NCBI GenBank assembly: GCA_025457915.1
Contig: JALOTL010000011.1
Location: 1-64,000, forward strand
From: Spirochaetota bacterium
GTDB lineage: Bacteria; Spirochaetota; UBA4802; UBA5550
Direction: 5' to 3'
DNA length: 64,000 bases
How positions within the stretch are numbered: position 1 is the first letter of the stretch; each line of letters starts with the position of its first letter. Position numbers and translations under genes: made by a program. Of this stretch, positions 4,919-15,276 are shown piece by piece. The notes beneath the pieces were generated by a model that did not search any database, was not told the DNA's origin, and saw nothing but the letters and a program-made list of their open reading frames with translations.

Positions 4919-5863
4919 ATGAAAGTAAAAGATAATAAAAACGGCAGTCTCTCCGAAAAGGAAATCAACGAAATAGTCGACAGGCTCTGCAGGCCTGAAT
5001 CGTACAGGGGTGTGTATCACAGGGCAAACCATGATTTTCCCATGCCTTCGCTTGAATCCCTTGGCCGCACCGTCGACATGATAAAATCGATCCTGTTCCC
5101 GGGTTACTACGTGCATTCGGACGTCAGGCCGGAAACCATGAAGTTTTACATCGGATCCGCAATGGACAGCGTCTTTACTATGCTGTCAGAACAGATAAAA
5201 AGGGGCTTCTGCTTTTCATGCACCGAAGACAACCTTGAACTTTGCGCTGACTGCGATTCAAGGGCCAGGAGCATATCCCGTCGTTTCATTTCAACTTTGC
5301 CGGATCTCAGGAGAATGCTCGGGCTTGACGCGAACGCGGCCTATACCGGCGACCCGGCGGCTAAAAACATAGGCGAAACCATATTCTGTTATCCCAGCCT
5401 GTCCGCGCTGGCAAACTACAGGATTTCTCACGAACTTTACATGCTGGAGGTTCCGCTGATACCCAGGATAATAACTGAGATGGCCCATTCCACGACTGGA
5501 ATAGACATTCACCCGGGAGCCACTATCGGCGAGTGTTTTTTCATAGATCACGGTACCGGTACGGTGATAGGAGAAACTACGATCATAGGCAAAAGCGTCA
5601 GGATATACCAGGGAGTGACCCTCGGCGCCAAGAGCTTTCCGCTGGATTCGTCCGGGAAACCAATCAAGGGCATCCCCAGGCATCCGATCGTTGAGGATGA
5701 TGTCATCATATATTCCGGGGCTACCATTCTGGGGAGGGTCACTATCGGCAGGGGAGCGGAGATCGGCGGGAATGTGTGGATCACGGAGGACGTGCCTGCC
5801 GGATCCAAAGTAATGCAGAGCAGGTTTGAAAACCAGTTCCACTACGACGGGTCGGGGATTTAA
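4919..5863 (+). CDS. cysE: Serine O-acetyltransferase (EpsC/CysE type) with a four-cysteine cluster
   Basis: It would transfer acetyl from acetyl-CoA to L-serine, the first step of cysteine synthesis. The C-terminal ~130 residues carry the left-handed beta-helix hexapeptide repeats with the SAT core ('MAHSTTGIDIHPGATIG', 'IDHGTGTVIGETTIIG', 'YQGVTLGA'). The long helical N-terminal part fits the EpsC-type form (~314 residues). Residues 98-112 hold C98-x2-C101-x7-C109-x2-C112, spaced like a metal-binding knuckle; a structural zinc is inference. No cysteine synthase gene is beside it. The last four bases overlap the stop of the convergent flavoprotein gene. Confidence 0.9.
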   Translation: MKVKDNKNGSLSEKEINEIVDRLCRPESYRGVYHRANHDFPMPSLESLGRTVDMIKSILFPGYYVHSDVRPETMKFYIGSAMDSVFTMLSEQIKRGFCFSCTEDNLELCADCDSRARSISRRFISTLPDLRRMLGLDANAAYTGDPAAKNIGETIFCYPSLSALANYRISHELYMLEVPLIPRIITEMAHSTTGIDIHPGATIGECFFIDHGTGTVIGETTIIGKSVRIYQGVTLGAKSFPLDSSGKPIKGIPRHPIVEDDVIIYSGATILGRVTIGRGAEIGGNVWITEDVPAGSKVMQSRFENQFHYDGSGI

Positions 5864-7212
5864 ACTGTTCTTTTGACGGCCTTCTGCGCCGCGGTCAGCA
5901 CCGGGTCCCAGACCGGTGAAAACGGCGGAGCGTATCCAAGATCCAGATAGGCAAAATCCCTCAGCGTCATTCCGACCGTAACGGCAGCCACGGCTGCATG
6001 AAGCCTCAGCGCCGCATTATCCGTTCCGGCTACCTCGACCCCCAGGATCCTTTCCGTTTTCAAATCATAAGTGATATTTACAAGGACGTCCATGTTTCCT
6101 GGATAGTAGCCTGCCCTGGATTTCCCGCTTGAGGATATCATCCTTGCGTCAATACCCTCCCTTTCAGCGTCGGTCACATTAAGGCCGGTTTTACCGATCT
6201 CGAGTTCGAAAACTTTAACCATCTGCGATCCCACGATGCCCCTGAAGCTTTCATCCTTGACCCCGGCGGCCTGCAGCCCGGCGACGCGTCCCTGTTTGTT
6301 CGCGGTTGTCCCGAGGGGCATATAAACATTTTTTCCCGTGATGATATTTTTGACCGTCGCGCAGTCTCCTGCGGCGAAAACGTCCTTTACACCGGTCCGT
6401 GATTTCTCGTCGATTATTATGGCCCCCTTTTCATCGAAATTCAGACCGCTGTCTTTTAAAAAGCCTGTGTTTGGCACCACCCCGATGGCGCAAATGACCA
6501 TGTCGGCATGAAAGCCGCCCCTGTCCGTTATCAACCCCGGCCTGTTTCCTGGGCCGCTGATTTTTTTAAGCGTCGCACCTGTTATAACTTCAATATTATT
6601 AGACGCCAGCCTGTCGCCTATCATTTTTCTTATGTTTTCACTCATCGTCATCGCCACAGACGGCATCTTTTCAATAATGGCGGTCTTTATCCCGAGTTTT
6701 GCGAATGATTCCGCCATCTCGAGACCGATGAAACCGCCGCCTATTATTGCTGAAACGGCCGGCTTTTTTTTATTTATGAATTTTTTTATTTCGATAGCTT
6801 GACCGAGGTTTCGGAGAAAGAATATTCTTTCTCCGTCAATCCCTTCAATCTCCGGGATGAACGGGATCGCGCCCGTGGCGATAATCAGCTTTTTGTATTC
6901 ATACTTTTCATTTGAACCGTTTCTGATTACAGTGATGATTTTTTTGTCCAGATCCGCTGATGACACCCCGGCGCCTGTATGTATCATGATCTTTTTTTCG
7001 CGTATGAATTCTTCAACATTAATTGCGATCAGGTCTTCCTGCGAGCCCACTTCGCCCGATATGAAATAAGGCATACCGCATGCCGCATAGGATACGTAAC
7101 TTCCCCTGTCAAAAACGGCTATTGACATTTCCGGGTCCATCCTTCTCGCCTGGGAAGCGGCGCTCATTCCGGCGGCATCGCCTCCAATTATAATCAGATC
7201 GATTGAATCCAT
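5860..7212 (-). CDS. CoA-disulfide reductase / NAD(P)H oxidase-family flavoprotein
   Basis: FAD- and NAD(P)H-dependent oxidoreductase of ~450 residues. From the chosen start the FAD motif is 'DLIIIGGDAAGMSAASQA', followed by the redox Cys45 in 'SYAACGMPYFISG'; a central NAD(P)H motif is 'AIIGGGFIGLEMAESF'. The C-terminal 'LGYAPPFSPVWDPVLTAAQ' is characteristic of CoA-disulfide/persulfide reductases. Likely roles are reduction of CoA disulfide, CoA persulfide or O2. The start at 7212 is preferred over an ATG 39 bases upstream because CTGGAG lies 6 bases before it and the FAD motif then begins at residue 5. It is divergent from the selenoprotein gene. Confidence 0.85.
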   Translation of the reverse strand: MDSIDLIIIGGDAAGMSAASQARRMDPEMSIAVFDRGSYVSYAACGMPYFISGEVGSQEDLIAINVEEFIREKKIMIHTGAGVSSADLDKKIITVIRNGSNEKYEYKKLIIATGAIPFIPEIEGIDGERIFFLRNLGQAIEIKKFINKKKPAVSAIIGGGFIGLEMAESFAKLGIKTAIIEKMPSVAMTMSENIRKMIGDRLASNNIEVITGATLKKISGPGNRPGLITDRGGFHADMVICAIGVVPNTGFLKDSGLNFDEKGAIIIDEKSRTGVKDVFAAGDCATVKNIITGKNVYMPLGTTANKQGRVAGLQAAGVKDESFRGIVGSQMVKVFELEIGKTGLNVTDAEREGIDARMISSSGKSRAGYYPGNMDVLVNITYDLKTERILGVEVAGTDNAALRLHAAVAAVTVGMTLRDFAYLDLGYAPPFSPVWDPVLTAAQKAVKRTV

Positions 7213-7280
7213 GATTGCTCCAGAGTTAAGTTTTATACAGCATTCAACCATAAGAATTACCAGCGGGCAATGAAAAAAAG

Positions 7281-7308: not shown

Positions 7309-7337
7309 ATAAAATATTAAATATTTTGGAGGTACGA

Positions 7338-7637
7338 ATGAAGCTCGGGATTACAGAAAGGGCTAAAGTAAAACTCAAAGAGGCCATCATGGATTCTCAA
7401 TTCAATGAACCTGTTTTAAAGATCATATTCCAGGGTTTCGGATGAGGCGGTCCCAGGCTGGGATTGACTCTGGATGAGTTGAATGATAATGATAAAGAGA
7501 TTATTAATGACGGTGATATCAGGATTTCCTTTGACGAAAGGATGAAAAAATATTTCGGAAATGATTCTCTCAGCATTGATTTCAGGGAATCATATTTAGG
7601 ACCGGGTTTTGTTATAGACGGGGCAGGGAAATGCTGA
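7338..7637 (+). CDS. HesB/IscA-like selenoprotein (in-frame TGA = selenocysteine 36)
   Basis: A 99-residue protein begins at an ATG with an ideal GGAGG site. Codon 36 is TGA (7443-7445), after which the same frame continues 63 codons to TGA at 7635-7637. The TGA sits in 'IIFQGFG-U-GGPRLGLTLDE', where A-type Fe-S carriers (IscA/HesB) have their first ligand cysteine; the C terminus GAGKC supplies another thiol. HesB-like selenoproteins with Sec before GGP are an established bacterial family, as I recall. A hairpin follows the TGA directly. The role is probably Fe-S or redox related, but is unknown. A simple stop-codon reading would give a 35-residue fragment and leave the conserved tail unexplained. 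It is a single-gene transcript ending at the terminator at 7637-7669. Confidence 0.88.
7446..7474 (+). promoter_or_regulatory. Bacterial SECIS-like stem-loop candidate
   Basis: Directly after the TGA, TCCCA (7451-7455) pairs perfectly with TGGGA (7459-7463) around a GGC loop, extendable by two G-U pairs. An alternative is CCAG (7453-7456) with CTGG (7470-7473) around a 13-base loop starting with G. Bacterial SECIS elements lie just 3' of the UGA and tend to have a G at the start of the apical loop. The first hairpin sits rather close to the UGA (loop 11 bases away), so which fold is used is unclear. Confidence 0.5.
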
Positions 7638-7695: not shown

Positions 7696-8271
7696 TTAAA
7701 ATTTTTCCGTCAGCACCTCGAAATATGATTTATCGTGCTGGCATGCCGGGCATTTCTCAGGGGGTTCCTTTGCTTCTAAGACGAATCCGCAGTTCCTGCA
7801 CTTCCAGATTACATTCGAATCTTTTTTGAAAACCGTGCCGTTTTTGACGTTTTTCAGAAGCTCAAGGTATCTTTCCTCATGGTGCTTTTCGACATCGGCG
7901 ATCCTGAGAAAGGCGAGGGCCACGTCTTTGAAGCCCTCCTGTTCGGCGATTTTTGCCGCTTCTGGATAAAGCTTTGTATGCTCCTCGTGCTCACCCATGG
8001 CCGCAGCCTCCAGGTTCTCCGCGGTGGTTCCTACTCTTCCCGCGGGATAGGTCGCCGTTATCTCAAGGTCCCCACCCTCGAGGAATTTAAAGAAGCGCTT
8101 TGCATGCTCCTTTTCATTCTCGGCCGTTTCAAGAAAAATCGCGGATATCTGCTCGAACCCCTCCTTTTTTGCCTGCGAAGCAAAATACCAGTATCTGTTC
8201 CGTGCCTGCGATTCTCCGGCGAACGAGGCAAGGAGGTTTTTTTCGGTTTTTGTTCCTTTAATGCTAGCCAT
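7696..8271 (-). CDS. rbr: Rubrerythrin
   Basis: A diiron peroxidase that reduces H2O2 with electrons from rubredoxin. The N-terminal ~140 residues are a ferritin-like four-helix bundle with '[14 protein letters not shown]' and two ExxH-type iron motifs ([20 protein letters not shown]). The C-terminal ~40 residues are a rubredoxin-like Fe(Cys)4 domain with CRNCG and CPACQ. Length 191 matches classical rubrerythrin. It is the last gene of the rubredoxin-cydAB-dfx-ferritin-rbr operon, 23 bases after ferritin, and is followed by a strong terminator. Cytoplasmic. Confidence 0.96.
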
Positions 8272-8294: not shown

Positions 8295-8819
8295 TTATTG
8301 GGCGGCCTGCTGCTGGTATGCCGCCATGTTGAATGTTCTCAGGGCCAGCTCCCTGTCTATCAGGAAAATGGCGCTTCCGTCCTTTCCTGTTAACCTGAGC
8401 TTTTCAAGTATTCCGCTTGCGTTCGCCTCCTCTTCAACCTGCTCGGTAACGTACCACTGCAGAATCGCCTGAGTGGCGTGATCGCCTTCTTTAACCGCAA
8501 GGTCCATGAGCTTGTCGATGGATTCCGTGACAAGCTGTTCGTGCTTGTAGGTTTCATCGAAAATCTGATCCGGGGAGTCCCAGGTTGTCTTGGGTCCATC
8601 GATCGGCATCAGTTTTACCTTGCCGCCCCTGCTGATGAGGTAGTCGTAGAATTTTTTCGCGTGCATCATCTCTTCCTGCGTCTGAACTTCCATCCAGTTC
8701 GCGAAACCCTCCAGGTTCCTTCCATGGAAATAGGCGGACATGGACAGGTAGAGATAAGCCGAATAGAGTTCTTTATTGATCTGCGAATTTATGGCTTCTT
8801 CTATAACGGGTTTAATCAT
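8295..8819 (-). CDS. ftn: Ferritin (FtnA-like, non-heme)
   Basis: Iron-storage ferritin of 174 residues. The pattern '[20 protein letters not shown]' and '[18 protein letters not shown]' holds the ferroxidase-centre Glu, Glu and His, and '[16 protein letters not shown]' the third-helix ligands. It oxidises Fe(II) and stores the mineral core, removing iron that would drive Fenton chemistry. It lies 14 bases after desulfoferrodoxin and 23 bases before rubrerythrin in the same operon, so iron storage is expressed together with peroxide and superoxide removal. Confidence 0.95.
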
Positions 8820-8833
8820 ATGTTTCCGTCTCC

Positions 8834-9211
8834 TTACAATGATGCTTTCCAGAGTCCATGCAGGTTGCAGTATTCCCTGGCGGTCACGGCTGAGGCTTCG
8901 ATCTTGAATTCCGCTTCCGGCTTCATGCCCGCGCTGAGGAATTGGAAAAACGATCTGCCGTCAGCGATCAACTCGATCCATTGTATGTAGTGCTTTTCTT
9001 CCATCGGATGCGGCACGGCGCCTATCCTGACCATGTAGCCGCCGGATATTTTTTCGATAACCGGAACGTGCTTTTCCTGGGCTGCGTCGGTTGTGTTTTC
9101 TTTTAATTGAACCATGTCCTGGCCGCAGCAGACCAGTGTTCCGCCGCCAACGTGGAGAACCTCCACAATGTTTCCGCAGACCCCGCATTTATAAACGTCA
9201 AGTCTTTGCAT
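8834..9211 (-). CDS. dfx: Desulfoferrodoxin / superoxide reductase (2Fe-SOR)
   Basis: Reduces superoxide to H2O2 without releasing O2. The N-terminal desulforedoxin-like centre has C9, C12, C28 and C29. The catalytic Fe(His4Cys) centre is formed by H48 (in EKHVP), H68, H74, C115 and H118 (CNLHGLW). At 125 residues it is the full two-centre type. The gene lies between cydB (17 bases) and ferritin (14 bases). The expected electron donor, rubredoxin, is encoded first in the same operon, and the H2O2 produced can be removed by the rubrerythrin encoded last. Confidence 0.96.
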
Positions 9212-14796: not shown

Positions 14797-15276
14797 TTAT
14801 TTTATCAATTCCCTCAGTGTGGAGAGCACGTCCTCGCCGTGTCCTTTCACGTTCACCTTGTTCCATACATGCGCGATTATACCCCGGGGATCTATCAAAA
14901 ACGTCGTTCTTGCAACCCCGAAGTATTCCCTCCCGTACATTTTTTTTATGCGCCATACTCCGTAGCCTTCAAGCGTTTTTTTTTCAACATCGCTTAATAG
15001 CTTGATACCGAGATCGTGTTTTAAAATGAATTTCTGGTGGCTCTGGCAGGAATCCGGGCTTACTCCGATTATGACCGCGTTCAGTTCCATAAAAACGGTC
15101 GATAGGGAAGTGAAGTCAATCGCTTCTACCGTGCACCCGCTTGTATTGTCTTTTGGATAAAAGTAAAGAACCACCCATTTCCCCCTGTAATCCTTTAATG
15201 AAACCGTGTTCCCATCCTGATCCGGCAGGGTGAAATCTGGCGCTTTTTCGCACCCTGACATTTTGATTTCAGCCAT
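14797..15276 (-). CDS. bcp: Thiol peroxidase PrxQ/BCP (peroxiredoxin)
   Basis: Reduces H2O2 and organic hydroperoxides. The peroxidatic Cys48 is in 'YPKDNTSGCTVEAIDF', a close match to the P-x3-T-x2-C motif. The resolving Cys five residues later, as in E. coli BCP, is absent. Cys77 (in GVSPDSCQSH) stands where PrxQ proteins with the resolving Cys in a later helix place it, so an intramolecular disulfide there is plausible. An extra Cys9 is present. Start ATG has AGGAGG 5 bases upstream. Cytoplasmic, single gene; fits the nearby ROS-defence genes. Confidence 0.92.
   Translation of the reverse strand: MAEIKMSGCEKAPDFTLPDQDGNTVSLKDYRGKWVVLYFYPKDNTSGCTVEAIDFTSLSTVFMELNAVIIGVSPDSCQSHQKFILKHDLGIKLLSDVEKKTLEGYGVWRIKKMYGREYFGVARTTFLIDPRGIIAHVWNKVNVKGHGEDVLSTLRELIK

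Follow-up and report, generated by a model that had tools for sequence, protein, structure and literature searches.

Comparative evidence for a divergent HesB/IscA-like selenoprotein gene with an in-frame TGA codon in a Spirochaetota genome

The window (the whole stretch of 64,000 nucleotides that was analysed) carries a gene that is almost certainly a genuine HesB-like selenoprotein gene, with UGA codon 36 decoded as selenocysteine (Sec); this confidence covers the identity of the gene and the decoding of the codon, not the biochemical function of the product. Judged from its sequence, the protein is a divergent branch of the recognised HesB-like selenoproteins and not a new kind of protein. 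Catalogues list such proteins from 2005-2006 or earlier (PMC1088965, PMC1794560), and the initial annotation was right to call them an established family. Known examples (TIGR01911) come from Methanococcus, Desulfovibrio and Geobacter. One of them, in Methanococcus maripaludis, was recognised through 75Se labelling and mutagenesis, according to work cited in PMC11097638. The present gene is otherwise an ordinary, well-supported selenoprotein gene. Its features are listed in Table 1.

Table 1. Coordinates of the selenoprotein gene, its neighbours and related loci. Positions refer to the window unless another locus is named.
Feature	Position	Strand	Basis or remark
HesB/IscA-like selenoprotein gene (predicted)	7338..7637	+	99 aa + stop; frame conserved; NCBIfam, Pfam and fold matches
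Shine-Dalgarno sequence GGAGGT	7328..7333	+	Read directly
Predicted Sec36 codon, TGA	7443..7445	+	Invariant column; alignment with IscA/ErpA ligand Cys; Sec machinery in genome
Candidate bacterial SECIS hairpin, 7 bp, loop UGGAU	7464..7482	+	25 nt from UGA to loop; covariation
Cys99 codon, C-terminal	7632..7634	+	Invariant in clade
Intrinsic terminator-like hairpin and T run, 3' of stop codon	7639..7669	+	Consensus match only
CoA-disulfide-reductase-like (CoADR-like) flavoprotein, divergent neighbour	5860..7251	-	TIGR03385, E 1e-128, below cut-off
Rubrerythrin, convergent neighbour	7696..8271	-	NF045767, over cut-off
Ferritin-like protein	8295..8819	-	NF007638, E 2e-40, below cut-off
Desulfoferrodoxin	8834..9211	-	TIGR00320, over cut-off
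selD, same genome	L010 1501-2427	-	GAGUAAK; TGA in GxGUxxK motif (Sec in UxxK)
HesB gene of G029, TGT for TGA	L071 5001-5320		Degraded tail and SECIS loop

The gene starts at ATG 7338, and the ribosome-binding site claimed upstream of it is present. The frame crosses the TGA at codon 36 and stays open for 63 codons, up to the true stop, TGA 7635-7637 (codon 100), where the protein ends in GAGKC. This is as first described, except that the conserved GGPRLGLTLDE sequence lies directly after the Sec codon and is not a tail. A terminator-like hairpin follows the stop codon and fits a one-gene transcript, though one such hairpin was found against 0.6 expected. One rival reading takes TGA 7443 as a real stop and the frame beyond it as a decayed or chance open reading frame. 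Given the local composition, 63 open codons would arise by chance with a probability of about 0.7%; hence the open frame is no proof by itself and the real evidence is conservation.

We searched 98 related genomes for the gene and obtained matches in 33 at E <= 1e-3, some of them to Cys-type or IscA-type genes. Within the order to which the host belongs there are 30 complete genes, the window copy included. The codon is TGA in 29 of these and TGT in one. In all 28 of the other complete TGA homologues the frame runs on to the same C-terminal Cys, so homologues do continue past codon 36, with U or C at that position. A partial gene in genome G016, where the TGA lies beside a run of N, is the 31st. 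Thus, 30 of the 31 same-order genomes that have the gene carry TGA at exactly codon 36. Some of the best-conserved residues of the protein lie beyond the TGA; G37, G38, P39, G42, L45, D46, E47, G90 and C99 are invariant in the clade alignment. Furthermore, differences at codon positions 1, 2 and 3, counted in 17 close pairs, were 139, 71 and 330 before the TGA and 140, 85 and 338 after it. The pattern is the same on both sides; both sides therefore evolve as coding sequence. The retention of TGA in homologues, protein conservation beyond it in 29 genes and the third-position bias rule out a genuine stop or pseudogene, a reading that we regard as scarcely credible.

Could the organism instead read TGA as Trp or Gly? 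We found no point in favour of this. TGA terminates 28 of the 53 long open reading frames in the window and is their commonest stop, so it is not reassigned. In addition, the sole homologue without TGA carries Cys and not Trp or Gly. Reassignment is thus ruled out and the chance left to it is vanishingly small. Conversely, the host genome has the full Sec-decoding trait of bacterial selenoprotein genes. The selA and selB products score 458 and 284 bits (cut-offs 268 and 242), and the two genes lie side by side with a gene for tRNA-Sec (anticodon UCA) on contig C47. The selD gene has a TGA in its GxGUxxK motif and is therefore itself a selenoprotein gene. The sel genes on which the initial annotation made its proposal depend are, therefore, all present.

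In the order as a whole, a selA match was found in 29 of the 30 genomes with the TGA-bearing gene. The remaining genome, G010 (81% complete), has a selB of full length. The four genomes of family f3 have neither selA nor a copy of the gene. The association between selA and the gene has a Fisher p of 0.003 with kinship ignored. In G029, the only genome with Cys in place of Sec, selA is absent and no selB scores over cut-off; selB is present in two TGA-bearing members of its genus. The G029 copy, moreover, no longer has the C-terminal Cys, nor the GG in the loop of the SECIS hairpin. By comparison of sequences, this is the pattern expected after loss of the Sec trait, and the gene would be a natural example of decay.

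The candidate SECIS hairpin was found as the consensus structure of 29 sequences, with 95.6% of cells paired. Three pairs show compensatory changes, amounting to 9 cells, where shuffles averaged 2.5 (0 of 500 shuffles); these counts come from related sequences, and a change from GCT/GAG to GTT/GAA, shared by three genomes, may have arisen once. Slid versions of the pairing were all far worse. The published bSECIS model sets rules for loop, stem and spacing, together with a minimum free energy limit of -7.5 kcal/mol (PMC13188914). The hairpin follows the rules (UGGAU, 7 bp, 25 nt) but, at -5.7 kcal/mol when folded alone (z -2.6), it misses the energy limit. A competing hairpin in the window, at -13.7 kcal/mol, overlaps the SECIS stem. 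This more stable hairpin, which lies upstream, was considered as the SECIS and rejected: it shows no covariation, and 83% of its cells are paired, at or below shuffles. Rfam gave no match within the window. In the mechanism that we propose, SelB with Sec-tRNA(UCA) would bind the 7464-7482 hairpin, 25 nt downstream of the UGA as measured to the loop. Sec would be inserted at codon 36, and translation would end at the second TGA, codon 100.

The product matches HesB/IscA profiles below their cut-offs (TIGR01911, E 3e-13; NF038090, E 1e-11; PF01521, E 6e-5), and profile matches, model and alignment support a HesB/IscA fold along the whole protein. An AlphaFold2 model (pLDDT 84) has IscA and SufA as its top Foldseek matches, with a TM score of about 0.7; the product is thus predicted to fold like an A-type Fe-S carrier. 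A profile alignment pairs U36 with the Cys that serves as first ligand in IscA, AQ_1857 and HI1723, which bears out the initial placing of the TGA at a ligand-Cys site. At the conserved HesB Cys, 29 of the 30 complete genes have TGA and one has TGT, and the motif formed with Sec is UGGP; the motif of HesB-like selenoproteins is listed as UxGP (PMC13188914).

Assignment to a described subfamily is another matter. The scores against TIGR01911 (50.0 bits; cut-off 66.35) and NF038090 (44.9 bits; cut-off 85) are both too low. Likewise, each of the 29 clade members is matched by both NCBIfam models and, going by best E-values, none reaches either cut-off. On these matches the protein is a member of the broader HesB-like kind, not of either subfamily as drawn. 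With TIGR01911 (HesB_rel_seleno) it shares the IscA/HesB fold, the UxGP motif, Sec at the conserved Cys and a full-length profile match; it differs in falling below the cut-off and in having a bacterial host with a bacterial-type SECIS. With NF038090 (IscA_HesB_Se, the Desulfovibrio/Desulfomicrobium type) it shares the signature U/C-GGP-x-L-x-x-ALDE. Whereas classical forms of that type have a Cys-rich tail, the window clade has a single terminal Cys and is separate in the tree. The protein is also below all equivalog cut-offs of the IscA, SufA and ErpA carriers (1x0g, 1r94, 2d2a and 2apn). It shares with them the fold and the position of the first ligand Cys, but their CSG and CxC motifs are replaced in the window clade by UGGP and one terminal Cys. 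In our tree the clade stands apart from both classical Sec/Cys HesB-like proteins and IscA types (support 93/83).

One genome of the set, G024, encodes a member of the divergent clade together with a classical HesB-like selenoprotein (L117, contig C75, near 6434-6673). The latter has the sequence UGGPSLAMALDE and a Cys-rich tail, and scores over the NF038090 cut-off. Since both forms occur in one genome, they represent separate subfamilies rather than a single orthologue that has diverged. Whether the clade is an order-restricted third subfamily of HesB selenoproteins, with Sec nearly fixed, a minimal U36/C99 site and a putative redox or metal activity distinct from cluster transfer, we judge to be an even call. 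Present NCBIfam cut-offs would miss the members of the whole order.

Turning to function, the carriers of this fold use three Cys residues in a C...CxC arrangement. This set is absent here: the only invariant chalcogen residues are U36, which occupies the position of the first IscA ligand Cys, and C99, the last residue of the protein. The two would replace the C...CxC set. In IscA structures, the counterparts of U36 and of the tail Cys meet as ligands; U36 and C99 therefore probably meet. By this analogy we favour U36 and C99 as the putative working site, with a redox or a metal role. They could quite possibly form a redox pair, linked by a reversible selenenylsulfide, although we put this a little short of an even call. 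Sec usually serves redox chemistry. Binding of metal or an Fe-S cluster, at a two-ligand site on a dimer interface, we rate as only slightly less probable. Some other role for the site is unlikely.

A different reading makes the protein a true A-type Fe-S carrier with Sec substituted for one ligand Cys; U36 and C99 from each of two protomers would then jointly hold one cluster with four ligands. Its fold and ligand position match those of IscA, SufA and ErpA. Moreover, no further A-type carrier was detected in the host genome, which does have three NifU_N proteins and SufBD proteins. We nevertheless find this reading somewhat doubtful. The CxC tail of the carriers is cut to one Cys, and Sec is seldom an Fe-S ligand. 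No copy of the gene was detected in 15 of the 46 genomes of the order, some of which are incomplete, and it is thus not generally essential. Finally, an unpublished observation mentioned in PMC11097638 is that an M. maripaludis strain mutated in a HesB-like selenoprotein fixed nitrogen normally. Most likely, a U36/C99 redox pair or two-ligand metal site describes the protein better than a classical three-Cys Fe-S carrier does.

The neighbouring genes are those claimed at the outset; the rubrerythrin, ferritin-like and desulfoferrodoxin genes are, however, convergent with the selenoprotein gene, on the other strand. It is mainly in family f1 of the order that the CoADR-like, rubrerythrin and cyd genes are kept as neighbours. 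In other families a gene read from its sequence as Lon protease lies upstream. Because the context is kept mainly in one family, it is weak evidence for function, and we did not take an operon-based function as strongly supported. The f1 neighbourhood genes (rubrerythrin, ferritin, desulfoferrodoxin, cytochrome bd and CoADR-like) would concern O2 and iron stress, which tilts the choice mildly towards the redox reading of the U36/C99 site. For further work the clade provides about 30 genomes and, in G029, a clean control for the loss of Sec. With the site reduced to one Sec and one Cys, the choice between redox and metal roles can be tested on a small protein.

Several further HesB-type genes were encountered. 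In a contig search by an alignment pattern that specified a Cys codon, most matches were consequently Cys homologues. Another family of the phylum has a Sec-type relative below the NCBIfam cut-offs (L116, G374:C17:112293-112559; GUGGPQLSMALDE...GGTC). A separate Cys-type HesB family, with the motif CCGxS/F and a tail of SGCC or similar, occurs in the host's order (L120-L123, in G015, G025, G033 and G029); in L123 the gene is followed by an ArsA-like ATPase frame. The window itself also encodes a peroxiredoxin (14797-15276, - strand) with the active site TSGC. Members of its family often carry Sec at that position; the window protein is the Cys form.
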